NCBI GenBank assembly: GCA_903908245.1
Contig: CAIVRE010000034.1
Span: 1-36,207, forward strand
Direction: 5' to 3'
Source: Candidatus Omnitrophota bacterium
Lineage (GTDB): Bacteria > Omnitrophota > Gorgyraeia > Zapsychrales > Fredricksoniimonadaceae
DNA length: 36,207 bases
Shown: piece by piece, positions 32,848 to 36,207 of the stretch
Layout of the letters: each line of letters opens with the position of its first letter
How positions within the stretch are numbered: the first letter of the stretch is position 1
The notes under the pieces: generated by a model
Told to the model about the DNA's origin: nothing
The model's database searches: none
Seen by the model: the letters and a program-made list of their open reading frames with translations, nothing else
Position numbers and translations under genes: made by a program

Positions 32848-33315
32848 ATGCATAAAAGGCGTGTCTATGTGGACACTTCAGTTTTTGGCGGGGTTTTTGA
32901 CAAGGAATTCGAAGTTCCCAGTCATAAGTTCTTTGAGTTGGTTCGCCGGGAAAGGTTTGTTCTGGTTGTTTCACCGATCCTTCATGCCGAGATCGAGTTT
33001 GCGCCGCCGAATGTAAGAAAGTTTTTTAATGAAATGCTGTCTTTTGCGGAAGAGTTAGAGGTTTCTGAAGAGGCACTGGTTTTAAGTCATGCATATTTGA
33101 AGCAAAACGTAATTCCCGAGTCATGTGCCGATGATGCATTGCATGTGGCTCTTGCTACGGCGTCAGGATGTGAAATGATCGTCAGCTGGAATTTTAAACA
33201 TATTGTGCATTTTCAACGGATCCCTTTGTATAACGCGATCAATTTGATGCGAGGGTATCGCGAGATCGGCATCTTTTCGCCCCAGGAGGTTATGAATTAT
33301 GAAGAAGACATTTGA
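32848..33315 (+). CDS. PIN-domain ribonuclease, toxin of a toxin-antitoxin pair
   Basis: A 155-aa PIN-fold protein. Acidic residues expected to bind metal are Asp9 in VYVDTSVFGGVF, a middle Glu in LHAEIEF (Glu48) and Asp95/Asp96 in CADDALHVALAT; VSWNFKHIV (Asn115) is the last conserved patch. VapC-like toxins cut tRNA or other RNA. AAGGAGG precedes ATG 32848. Its last 17 bases overlap a 56-aa gene that looks like the antitoxin. Gene order is toxin first, the reverse of classical vapBC but known for this PIN subgroup. Confidence 0.85.
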   Translation: MHKRRVYVDTSVFGGVFDKEFEVPSHKFFELVRRERFVLVVSPILHAEIEFAPPNVRKFFNEMLSFAEELEVSEEALVLSHAYLKQNVIPESCADDALHVALATASGCEMIVSWNFKHIVHFQRIPLYNAINLMRGYREIGIFSPQEVMNYEEDI

Positions 33316-33469
33316 TTGTGTAACAATGAAAGATGAATGTGCCCGCAAGGTAAGGCAGATGATCGGCTCCGTGAGTATTAAGAAGGAGTTGGCTTTCTGG
33401 AAGCAAAAAGCTGAAAGTCTGAAGGGTTCTGCGCGGGGTACGCGTCATTCAAAAACCGCAGTTGCGTAA
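33299..33469 (+). CDS. Small antitoxin-like protein paired with the PIN toxin
   Basis: 56 aa, MKKTFDCVTMKDECARKVRQ at the start, then MIGSVSIKKELAFWKQKAES and a basic tail. The start resembles small partners of PIN proteins (K.FDCV.MK.....K...). ATG 33299 has AGGAGG nine bases upstream, inside the toxin gene, and the frames overlap by 17 bases. There is a predicted helix with alternating charge and no clear DNA-binding fold. I infer that it neutralises the upstream PIN protein. Confidence 0.72.
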   Translation: MKKTFDCVTMKDECARKVRQMIGSVSIKKELAFWKQKAESLKGSARGTRHSKTAVA

Positions 33470-33619
33470 AGACGCTATAAGGTTTATTCCTCGGCTGTTG
33501 ATGAAGCGTCGTCTTCAGCTGTTTGTTTCATGATAGCATTAAGTCTATTCGTCAAGTCCGGCTGGTGGGATTGGCGATCACGAGTATTTGCTTTCTTGCA
33601 TCAGCATTTTGATTCTAAG

Positions 33620-33657
33620 ACCCCTTGTTCACTTTTGTGGATGAGGGGTTTTCTTTT
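33620..33657 (+). terminator. Terminator between the TA pair and the sigma operon
   Basis: ACCCCT (33620-33625) with AGGGGT (33644-33649), continued inside by TTCAC/GTGGA around TTTT, then TTTCTTTTT. It separates the PIN module from the downstream operon. Confidence 0.8.
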
Positions 33658-33774: not shown

Positions 33775-33804
33775 TTGTCGTATATAAAGTAGAAATTGTA
33801 TGAT
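33775..33804 (+). promoter_or_regulatory. Possible promoter of the HNH-like/sigma/anti-sigma/CHAT operon
   Basis: TTGTCG (33775-33780), an 18-bp spacer and TATGAT (33799-33804), 25 nt before ATG 33830. It is weak against sigma70 consensus. If the operon's own ECF factor drives it, these boxes would be coincidental. Confidence 0.3.
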
Positions 33805-33829: not shown

Positions 33830-34540
33830 ATGAGTGATCGTTGTTACGCCAATTTTCTGGGCAACTGTAAAGGGGCTATCTCCCGAGAGCATTATATTTC
33901 ATGTTCTCTTTTAAAGCTTGTTCCTGGAGACAGTGTTACTATTCGAGGTGTGCCGTGGCTTGGAAAAGGTGAGTCGAGAGTTATTGATAAGTACGCATTT
34001 TGTGCAAAAGTTCTATGTGAGCATCATAACCATGAGTTGTCTGTCTTAGATGAAGAGATCGGCCGATTATTCCATGTTTTGTTTGATGTCTTTAGAAAAG
34101 ATTACATGCCGGCTCAGGTTGCGCTCACTGATAATGACGTAAGTGTTAGATTTAATGGTCGGATAGTGGAGCGGTGGTTGTTAAAAATGTTGTGCGGTGC
34201 CATTGCTGCTGGCAATTGGCAGGGAGCGCACAGGGAGCCGGATGCCGATTTGGTAAAAACACTTTTCAATCAAAGAGAATGGCCAAAACAATTTAAGCTT
34301 TACTCGAGTGAGTTCACGGATTATACAGTTCCAGAAAACCCCGGCATTGATTTTCAGGTCAATGTATCTTTAGATGGCAATATCTTGCAGGGCATCAAGG
34401 TTCGAATTCTTTGTTATGACTTTATTCTTGCCCTTGGCTCTTTTCAGGGGATTCCTGGCCTTGAGCGCCCGTCTGATATTCATATATGCAAAGATGGAGG
34501 CCGTCCTTTAAATATCAAGTTCTATTGGCTGGAAACCTAG
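33830..34540 (+). CDS. HNH-like Cys/His protein, first gene of the sigma/CHAT operon
   Basis: 236 aa, no membrane segment. The first 80 residues have the outline of a zinc-bound HNH/McrA-like fold: an early CYANFLGNC pair, SREHYISCSLL (REH in the place of the catalytic His strand) and LCEHHNHELSVLDEE, where related HNH families have CxxCN...LG..D. Cys is replaced by His at one place, so metal binding may be altered and nuclease activity is unproven. The rest (90-236) is unrecognised, with a helical middle and a beta-rich end. It ends 5 nt before the sigma-factor ATG, so it is part of the same operon. Codon and base use are more AT-rich than in the chromosomal genes to the left. Confidence 0.6.
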   Translation: MSDRCYANFLGNCKGAISREHYISCSLLKLVPGDSVTIRGVPWLGKGESRVIDKYAFCAKVLCEHHNHELSVLDEEIGRLFHVLFDVFRKDYMPAQVALTDNDVSVRFNGRIVERWLLKMLCGAIAAGNWQGAHREPDADLVKTLFNQREWPKQFKLYSSEFTDYTVPENPGIDFQVNVSLDGNILQGIKVRILCYDFILALGSFQGIPGLERPSDIHICKDGGRPLNIKFYWLET

Positions 34541-34545
34541 TCGGC

Positions 34546-35151
34546 ATGAATATAAGTGACGCAGAATTGATCTCAAAGTTGTTGCTTGGCGATAAGAAGA
34601 CCTGGGATGAGTTTGTCGTCGCTCATTCAAAGCTGGTTTATAGTTTTATCCAGGCTACTTTCAGGAAATATGGCGCGAGGATTCAGAAAGAGTCAGTCGA
34701 TGACCTTCACAATGATGTGTTTTTGGGATTCGTTGAGGACAATTTCAGAAGGTTGCGCCAGTTTGAGGGGCGATGTTCATTGGCGAGTTTTGTCAGGACC
34801 AGGACAGTCAATCTGACGATCGATCATTTAAGAGGTATTAAGCCGACAAGCTCGATCGATGAGATCTCAGAGTCTGAAGATGGAGCTATATATCAGAAAC
34901 TTATTAAAGAGCTTCAGGTTTCTCCTGAGCACGCCTCAATAGAGGCTGATGATGCTACATCAATTGTAAAGACATTGCTTAATGAGTTAAGCGTGGATGA
35001 GCGAGAGTTTGTTCGGTTATATTATTTCTCCGACATGGCTCCGGAGCAGATTATGGAGCAGTTGAATATTAAACGCGGCCTTTATGATGTGAAGAAACAA
35101 AGAGTGTTAGGAAAGTTATCGGAGATTGCTCGGAAAAAGAAAATTTGTTAG
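34546..35151 (+). CDS. ECF-type RNA polymerase sigma factor
   Basis: 201 aa from ATG 34546 (MNISDAELISKLLLGDKKTWDEF); the frame is open further upstream but that part overlaps the previous gene. Region sigma2: LVYSFIQATFRKYGARIQKE, DDLHNDVFLGFVEDNFRRLRQF, then SLASFVRTRTVNLTIDHLRG, the -10-recognising part. A linker follows (about 105-135), then sigma4: LLNELSVDEREFVRLYYFSDMAPEQIMEQLNIKRGLYDVKKQRVLGKL, a helix-turn-helix for the -35 box. The W of the usual sigma2 end is replaced by SF. The next gene encodes its likely anti-sigma partner (42-nt gap). Target promoters are unknown. Confidence 0.88.
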   Translation: MNISDAELISKLLLGDKKTWDEFVVAHSKLVYSFIQATFRKYGARIQKESVDDLHNDVFLGFVEDNFRRLRQFEGRCSLASFVRTRTVNLTIDHLRGIKPTSSIDEISESEDGAIYQKLIKELQVSPEHASIEADDATSIVKTLLNELSVDEREFVRLYYFSDMAPEQIMEQLNIKRGLYDVKKQRVLGKLSEIARKKKIC

Positions 35152-35193
35152 ATTGTGTTGTTCCAAGCGTCTATCGCTGTGGAGGTAACTATT

Positions 35194-35865
35194 ATGTTCA
35201 AAAATCCATTTAAGAAGCAATGCCCTGATGACGAGACGGTGGCCTGTTATATTGACGGGCTCTTGCCTTTGAAGGAAAAGGCCAGTATCGATAAGCATTT
35301 GATGGCCTGTTCAGATTGCCAGGAGGCCTTTGCCATTCATAAAGAAGTGGCCGATCAGCAAAAGGTTGGGGTTTTGGCACCTGTGCCGGAGTATTTGGTC
35401 GAAGCCGCCAAGAACATTCGGGCAGGACAAAAGGGTGTTAATTTTCTGGATATTGCGGTTACTGTGGTCGAAGACTTTGTCCAAGGGCTAAAGACGACTG
35501 GGGACATCATTGCCGGGGTTGGCCAGGATCTGCAGTATGCCGGGGCAATGCGAGGTGCGAATGAAGAGAAAGTGTCCAGCGTTGTCGTGCGAAAGGTTAT
35601 TGAAGACGTTTGTGTTGAGGTTGAGGTTTCTCGCTCGACGGGTGATTTGAGCAATGTTGTGTTAAGGGTTTCAGACAATGTTCGCAAAACGCCTAGAACA
35701 GACCTTCGGGCAACACTTATCCTCGATGATACTGAACTGAAGTCATATGTAACTGAGGGCGGTACGCGTAGTTTTGAGAATCTACGGCCAGGGAAGTATG
35801 TAATTCAGATAGCAGATATTAAGAAGATCCTTGGAGTTGTTGGCTTGGAGATCAAACAGGCATGA
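35194..35865 (+). CDS. Soluble ZAS (zf-HC2) anti-sigma factor with beta-rich C-terminal domain
   Basis: 223 aa from ATG 35194, with GGAGGT upstream. Residues 10-48 are a zinc-binding anti-sigma domain: VACYIDGLLPLKEKASIDKH, with the His35-x3-Cys39-x2-Cys42 motif (HLMACSDC), the fold that clamps ECF factors. Unlike most such proteins there is no transmembrane helix; residues 70-125 are a helical, Gly-rich linker (DIIAGVGQDLQYAGAMRG). Residues about 135-223 look like a beta sandwich (DVCVEVEVS, VVLRVSDN, ATLILDDTELKSYVTEGG, FENLRPGKYVIQI). The signal must therefore be cytoplasmic. It lies directly between the sigma factor and a CHAT-domain gene (ATGA overlap), so proteolysis of the linker is an attractive but unproven release mechanism. 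Confidence 0.8.
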   Translation: MFKNPFKKQCPDDETVACYIDGLLPLKEKASIDKHLMACSDCQEAFAIHKEVADQQKVGVLAPVPEYLVEAAKNIRAGQKGVNFLDIAVTVVEDFVQGLKTTGDIIAGVGQDLQYAGAMRGANEEKVSSVVVRKVIEDVCVEVEVSRSTGDLSNVVLRVSDNVRKTPRTDLRATLILDDTELKSYVTEGGTRSFENLRPGKYVIQIADIKKILGVVGLEIKQA

Positions 35866-36207
35866 GTATCGCAACGACACTGAAGCTGGATGCTTCTATA
35901 AGAGATAATCAGATTACTATGTGCGTGTACGAGGAGGACTCGACTCTTCCTCATTATGATCAGACCTCCGTATCTTTACAGGAGGTTTTTTCACTTTGTG
36001 GAGAGATCGTCAAGTTGCTTAATAAAGCAAATGGTGCGATTGGCAGGTCTTCGGGGATCAGTGCGGAACTGAAGAAGGCCGGACGGTGTCTTTATGACCA
36101 GCTATTAACAGAGAGTGCAAAGACTAAATTCAGAGTTACAAAAGCCGCGAATCTTGAAGTCTTTATTGATGAAGGACTTGTTTCTATTCCGTGGGAACTG
36201 CTCTTTG
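35862..36207 (+). CDS. CHAT-domain (caspase-like) protein, N-terminal part
   Basis: The gene runs off the window after 115 codons. ATG 35862 overlaps the anti-sigma stop (ATGA). The visible part begins MSIATTLKLDASIRDNQITM. Its end matches the start of CHAT domains: LKKAGRCLYDQLLTESAKTK, then ANLEVFIDEGLVSIPWELLF, the IPWELL box that stands before the catalytic His and Cys. Those residues lie beyond the window, so activity cannot be judged. CHAT proteins are caspase/separase-clan proteases, often paired with sensors in bacterial defence and cell-death systems. Confidence 0.75.
   Translation, partial: MSIATTLKLDASIRDNQITMCVYEEDSTLPHYDQTSVSLQEVFSLCGEIVKLLNKANGAIGRSSGISAELKKAGRCLYDQLLTESAKTKFRVTKAANLEVFIDEGLVSIPWELLF

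Follow-up and report, generated by a model that had tools for sequence, protein, structure and literature searches.

A conserved sigma, zinc-finger anti-sigma and CHAT gene trio in Omnitrophota: a candidate one-step transmembrane proteolytic sigma switch

The window analysed here comprises an entire contig (C34, 36207 bases) from a 34-contig, 2.16-Mb draft genome of an Omnitrophota bacterium. Its right end carries four plus-strand open reading frames, encoding an HNH-like protein, an ECF sigma factor, an anti-sigma protein and the beginning of a CHAT protein. The features of this region are as follows.

33617..33652, + strand: terminator-like hairpin with a 16-pair stem and T-rich tail, upstream of the row
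33775..33804, + strand: weak sigma-70-like promoter candidate, TTGTCG-18-TATGAT, upstream of the HNH-like gene
33830..34540, + strand: HNH-like protein, 236 aa, judged a local hitchhiker; C13, E20-H21, C63 and H66-N67 are kept in distant homologues
34546..35151, + strand: ECF sigma factor, 201 aa, regions 2 and 4 (TIGR02937, 1.8e-19)
35152..35168, + strand: mosaic boundary; similarity to the same-genus genome G008 begins at about 35168 (blastn)
35194 (ATG)..35865, + strand: soluble anti-sigma protein, 223 aa, with zinc-finger domain, conserved linker and Ig-like beta-sandwich
35221..35319, + strand: putative zinc ligands Cys10, His35, Cys39 and Cys42 (H-x3-C-x2-C), placed by alignment
35551..35553, + strand: codon of Arg120 (CGA), candidate scissile P1 residue in the linker
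35862..36207, + strand: N-terminal 115 aa of a CHAT-transmembrane-sensor protein, the gene running off the contig end

An initial annotation had described these genes as a four-gene operon behind a possible promoter and an upstream terminator. The reading frames and their spacing are as it gave them, with a gap of 5 nt between the HNH-like and sigma genes, a gap of 42 nt between the sigma and anti-sigma genes, and a 4-nt ATGA overlap between the anti-sigma and CHAT genes. The terminator is also there, in the form of the hairpin listed above. A promoter candidate is present too, but it matches the consensus at only 9 of 12 positions; 9 sites of this type were observed against 5.1 expected, and the candidate in the window does not rise above the shuffle level. 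As for the operon, the sigma, anti-sigma and CHAT genes are co-conserved, membership of the HNH-like gene is not supported, and the unit that is conserved comprises three genes rather than four.

The HNH-like protein owes its name to a C..EH...C..HN pattern kept in three distant homologues, not to a family match, and nothing in Pfam, NCBIfam or PADLOC matched it. Homologues occur in 3 of the 384 sampled genomes of the class, the window's own genome included, and in none of the other 31 genomes of its family. Others, at 30-37% identity, sit on Bradyrhizobium, Rhodococcus and other plasmids in unrelated contexts. Given this rarity and these plasmid contexts, we rejected the gene as a member of the system. 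From its distribution we judge it to be a rare hitchhiker that was inserted locally.

The other three genes behave very differently. A profile of three anti-sigma proteins (E <= 1e-8) found homologues in 59 of the 384 sampled genomes, mostly in one family with genomes of 1-1.9 Mb. Larger stretches at 40 places, together with two loci from the window's family, gave 42 loci. The CHAT gene lies directly downstream of the anti-sigma gene in 42/42 of them and a sigma gene directly upstream in 41/42; the remaining locus (L088) has 1501 Ns there, an assembly gap. Scanning GTDB contigs with CHAT alone gave 285 candidate stretches, and nearly all of the best 80 are labelled Omnitrophota. Among these best 80 of 285, the trio was found at 67 of the 68 loci with enough upstream DNA. 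At the single exception no sigma gene was seen, and this is apparently the same contig as L088 (length 288431 in both). The anti-sigma-selected and CHAT-selected sets have genomes in common and cannot count as independent, but each bears out the conserved sigma/zf-HC2/CHAT neighbourhood that had been anticipated. Scans of genome and viral contigs with single proteins returned nothing, the queries being too diverged. A compact relative of the trio is found in another phylum, on a Leptospira interrogans plasmid record (L182, 1981-5005), where a sigma gene is followed by genes for a 242-aa protein and a 403-aa CHAT protein. The 242-aa protein has the Arg120-type linker and the beta-sandwich without the zinc finger, and the CHAT protein keeps the His/Cys dyad without a transmembrane helix; those two missing parts are therefore not essential everywhere.

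The sigma factor of the window has regions 2 and 4 only and scores 70 bits against TIGR02937 (cut-off 42.9), which places it among the ECF sigma factors; against the type III-E CASP-sigma family NF041236 it reaches 20.3 bits, for a cut-off of 100. Just behind its gene the locus is mosaic. The DNA between 35168 and the contig end shares 79.6% identity with G008, and the sigma gene has no DNA similarity to that genome by blastn. The window and G008 anti-sigma proteins are 80% identical, the sigma proteins 34%. Conversely, positions 34546-35259, which cover the sigma gene and the start of the anti-sigma gene, have 68% DNA identity to another genome, G003, whose sigma protein is about 63-64% identical to that of the window. 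These comparisons indicate that one of the two members of the genus has swapped its sigma gene. In G003 (L030, 6139-7920), the gene after the window-like sigma gene codes for a different kind of zf-HC2 protein, 377 aa long, in which a Gly-rich hydrophobic stretch makes up the C-terminal half in place of the beta-sandwich; no CHAT gene comes after it.

Among the relatives, 26 of 41 loci have an exact TATAAT in the interval 3-25 nt before the sigma gene, with its end 3-9 nt ahead of the start codon (shuffle mean 1.0), and at 21 of 41 it is extended by TG (shuffle mean 0.08). A TATAAT in this position points to the housekeeping sigma factor and leaderless transcripts, not autoregulation, so that the promoter of the trio is apparently sigma-70-like and leaderless. 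The window differs from these loci in that the HNH-like gene ends just before the sigma gene, and the weak candidate further up is the only promoter seen. We also considered an ECF-type autoregulatory promoter, but the region upstream of sigma yielded no motif of this type. A dyad that was enriched at first, ATGTC...TTTGC, proved to lie in the coding region of the pyrophosphatase gene upstream, which left the TATAAT box beside the start codon as the remaining signal. At loci L060-L099, exact extended -10 boxes upstream of sigma end 6-9 nt before start codons, which suggests that transcripts without leaders may be widespread in Omnitrophota.

The anti-sigma protein is, as originally proposed, a soluble zinc-finger protein. 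It matches zf-HC2 (27.3 bits, 3.8e-6, cut-off 22.2), as do 15 of 17 relatives, and the window copy has no transmembrane helix or hydrophobic segment. As in ZAS domains, the H-x3-C-x2-C motif lies in a helical N-terminal domain, with helices at 13-20, 26-38, 40-57 and 66-79 in an AF2 model (pLDDT 78), and His35, Cys39 and Cys42 are each kept in 88 of 92 sequences of a broad anti-sigma set. The model also shows a well-modelled beta-sandwich at residues 129-222, for which a fold search returned only generic Ig-like sandwiches with weak scores. Between the two domains, the linker at residues 109-123 is of low confidence, with values below 50 at 109-115 and 117-123.

This linker contains Arg120, which is kept in 95/95 distinct anti-sigma sequences whose median pairwise identity is 41%. 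The protein of G003 was left out of this count, its unrelated C-terminal part aligning there by chance. Only one other position is fully invariant, Tyr202 (94/94), which lies in the sandwich. The consensus around Arg120 reads P-A-P-V-L-R-S/G-R. Proteases of clan CD such as separase and clostripain cleave after Arg. In the CHAT proteins, Asp295 (G008 numbering), which by motif we take to correspond to the separase residue that binds the P1 Arg, is present in 42/42 sequences. Since Arg120 and Asp295 are both invariant and clan CD enzymes cleave after Arg, we propose Arg120 as the cut site. It is a candidate that lies in a low-confidence linker, and its invariance makes cleavage of the anti-sigma protein more plausible. 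As the linker is conserved as a block, the invariance of Arg120 may also be structural.

The pattern of conserved residues bears on whether the anti-sigma protein is the substrate at all. The three genes could merely be co-regulated, with the anti-sigma protein sensing redox state through its zinc finger and the CHAT protein acting on something else, as an effector or a separate stress protease. There is precedent in ChrR and RshA, soluble ZAS anti-sigma proteins that respond to oxidative signals themselves (PMC8999054), and CHAT proteases have diverse substrates. Yet the zinc ligands are less conserved than Arg120, and one locus (L093) lacks the zinc cysteines but keeps the trio and Arg120. 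The strict co-conservation, fixed order and near-zero spacing of the genes also argue against independent functions, and we regard this explanation as unlikely.

Because the contig stops after 115 CHAT residues, the rest of the protein was read in relatives. The fragment ends in IPWELLF, and the catalytic residues would fall past the contig end. It has no Pfam match by itself, and it shares 80% identity with the beginning of a 783-aa homologue that is complete in G008 and whose CHAT domain scores 130.8 bits. A search of the 34-contig assembly did not turn up the remainder of the gene; the gene is presumably complete in the organism. All 14 relatives matched CHAT (PF12770; best 9.7e-39).

The catalytic dyad that the initial annotation had supposed is invariant in these relatives, with His207 and His211 in 42/42 and Cys254 in 41/41 covering sequences (G008 numbering). 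In all 41 full-length proteins a single transmembrane helix directly follows the CHAT domain, at about residues 360-390. The net charge is +5.0 before the helix and +1.4 after it, and is higher before than after in 39/41. Given this basic flank, the positive-inside rule would place the CHAT domain in the cytoplasm. A sensor domain had also been suspected, and the C-terminal part beyond the helix matches TPR families in 36/42 proteins and F5/8 type C (discoidin) domains in 4/42, all from one family. The discoidin proteins have two such domains each where the contig is complete; one copy is cut by a contig end. F5/8 type C domains bind carbohydrates or surfaces and are normally extracellular. 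In the G008 protein, the nearest relative of the window's, the C-terminal part matched no family. That the CHAT domain stays constant while the outer domain changes is in keeping with a sensor protease. The cytoplasmic signal that had been assumed is not supported: a transmembrane helix after CHAT, with TPR or discoidin domains beyond it, contradicts such a signal and suggests an external one. The AF2 model of the CHAT protein is poor (pLDDT 57), and the top matches of a fold search with it, Csx29, separase and DdvA, all at E > 0.001, are leads alone.

The catalytic residues also help to weigh a mechanism without cutting, in which a signal-driven conformational change would let the CHAT protein bind the beta-sandwich of the anti-sigma protein and displace the sigma factor. 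Such a mechanism would resemble DdvA of M. xanthus, a 991-aa transmembrane anti-sigma protein that has ZAS and CHAT in one chain. DdvA illustrates that CHAT can be tied to an anti-sigma protein with no separate substrate, and the beta-sandwich is conserved. A purely structural role would not, however, need a His/Cys dyad that is invariant in all covering copies, and it would leave the invariance of the linker Arg120 without explanation. We consider displacement slightly less probable still than a different CHAT substrate.

A close functional parallel comes from type III-E CRISPR systems. In Craspase (Cas7-11-Csx29, Csx30, CASP-sigma), protease action frees a sigma factor: Csx29, a TPR-CHAT protein, cuts Csx30, the inhibitor of CASP-sigma (PMC10028731). 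Both systems combine a CHAT-family protease, an ECF-like sigma factor and a separate soluble inhibitor, so that the trio could be a Craspase-like defense module whose CRISPR sensor has been lost or swapped and whose trigger is phage infection. The architectures differ, however. Csx29 is soluble, has TPR before CHAT and is activated by an RNA-guided complex, whereas the proteins described here run from CHAT through a transmembrane helix to TPR or discoidin domains, and their inhibitor has a zinc finger and a beta-sandwich. The commonest upstream neighbour of the trio is a proton-pumping pyrophosphatase (20 loci) and the commonest downstream neighbour a sortilin-like beta-propeller protein (20 loci). 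No cas genes, and with them no Cas7-11/gRAMP, recur at the 42 loci, in agreement with the independence from CRISPR claimed at the outset. No trio-related sequence was found in viral contigs, and PADLOC has no match for the protease or the anti-sigma protein. Nothing found points to the defense role that had been raised as a possibility, and we regard it as very improbable.

We therefore favor, with a probability of roughly 0.6, a one-step transmembrane proteolytic sigma switch. The soluble zinc-finger anti-sigma protein would hold the ECF sigma factor. The N-terminal CHAT cysteine-protease domain of the membrane protein would be cytoplasmic, on the same side as the sigma and anti-sigma proteins, and the C-terminal TPR domain, or F5/8 type C domain in some relatives, would lie outside and sense an envelope or extracellular signal. 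That signal would activate the CHAT domain, which would cut the linker that joins the sigma-binding domain of the anti-sigma protein to the beta-sandwich, with Arg120 as the likeliest P1 residue. The sigma factor would then be set free, perhaps after further degradation of the anti-sigma protein. Some observations speak against this switch. The divergence of the window and G008 sigma factors beside such similar anti-sigma proteins would not be expected of closely matched partners, the linker block around Arg120 may be structural, and the Leptospira relative dispenses with both helix and zinc finger.

Several other known systems share parts of this layout. DdvS/DdvA of Myxococcus xanthus (PDB 8rot, 8rw5, 8rlz; PMC4374960) likewise has an ECF sigma factor, a ZAS anti-sigma, a membrane segment and CHAT. 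DdvA is one polypeptide with ZAS first and CHAT C-terminal, so that CHAT presumably lies across the membrane from ZAS, whereas in the trio ZAS and CHAT are encoded by separate reading frames, the transmembrane helix is in the CHAT protein alone, and both domains would be on the same side. CalpL/CalpT/CalpS of type III CRISPR is also a three-part sigma, anti-sigma and protease switch (PMC11417357), but its protease is soluble, of the Lon family and triggered by cA4 through a SAVED domain. ECF54 has CHAT proteins in a conserved neighbourhood, and proteolytic control has been proposed for it (PMC8999054); it is described as lacking an anti-sigma factor, whereas a zf-HC2 anti-sigma gene is adjacent in every trio locus. 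In RseA/DegS/RseP and RsiW, an envelope signal leads to anti-sigma proteolysis and sigma release, as proposed here. Those systems have a membrane-spanning anti-sigma protein on which several proteases act in turn, whereas in the trio it is the protease that crosses the membrane and the anti-sigma protein is soluble, the window's copy lacking any hydrophobic segment. Finally, cyanobacterial EACC2/caspase loci bring together a caspase-like protease, an ECF sigma factor and a TPR protein (DUF1822) (PMC8195603), but no zinc-finger anti-sigma is reported for them, their domain composition is other, and they are tied to TRADD-N conflict systems.

Pieces of the design are already known from Csx29/Csx30, DdvA and ECF54. 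In the open-licence literature we found no description of a sigma/anti-sigma/CHAT trio, though one may have gone undetected. We see an even chance that the full design is a new way of releasing a sigma factor: a single membrane protein that combines sensor and protease and whose extracellular domain can be exchanged, a CHAT domain in the cytoplasm making a single cut after an invariant Arg of a soluble anti-sigma protein, and a constitutive, leaderless housekeeping promoter that would keep the cassette always armed. If the proposed switch is correct, caspase-like proteolytic control of transcription would be separated from CRISPR and would be an ordinary way of signalling across the membrane in a phylum that is large and uncultured. 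It would add a third layout to ECF signalling, a transmembrane protease with a soluble substrate, next to transmembrane anti-sigma proteins (RseA, DdvA) and self-sensing soluble ones (ChrR). Although Omnitrophota are almost all uncultured, the idea can still be tested in E. coli, since one residue, Arg120, and one cysteine can be named for mutation.

Some further observations concern the surroundings of these genes. Just upstream of the row, the window encodes a PIN_3-domain protein (32848-33315; 35.7 bits) whose gene is overlapped by a 56-aa open reading frame (33299-33469), and the two look like a toxin-antitoxin pair. Two 837-aa open reading frames on opposite strands of the window proved unrelated. 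At two loci of relatives (L006, 4318-5184; L031, 2337-3200), a gene for a predicted secreted beta-rich protein overlaps the sigma start, and this protein is a possible accessory or target.
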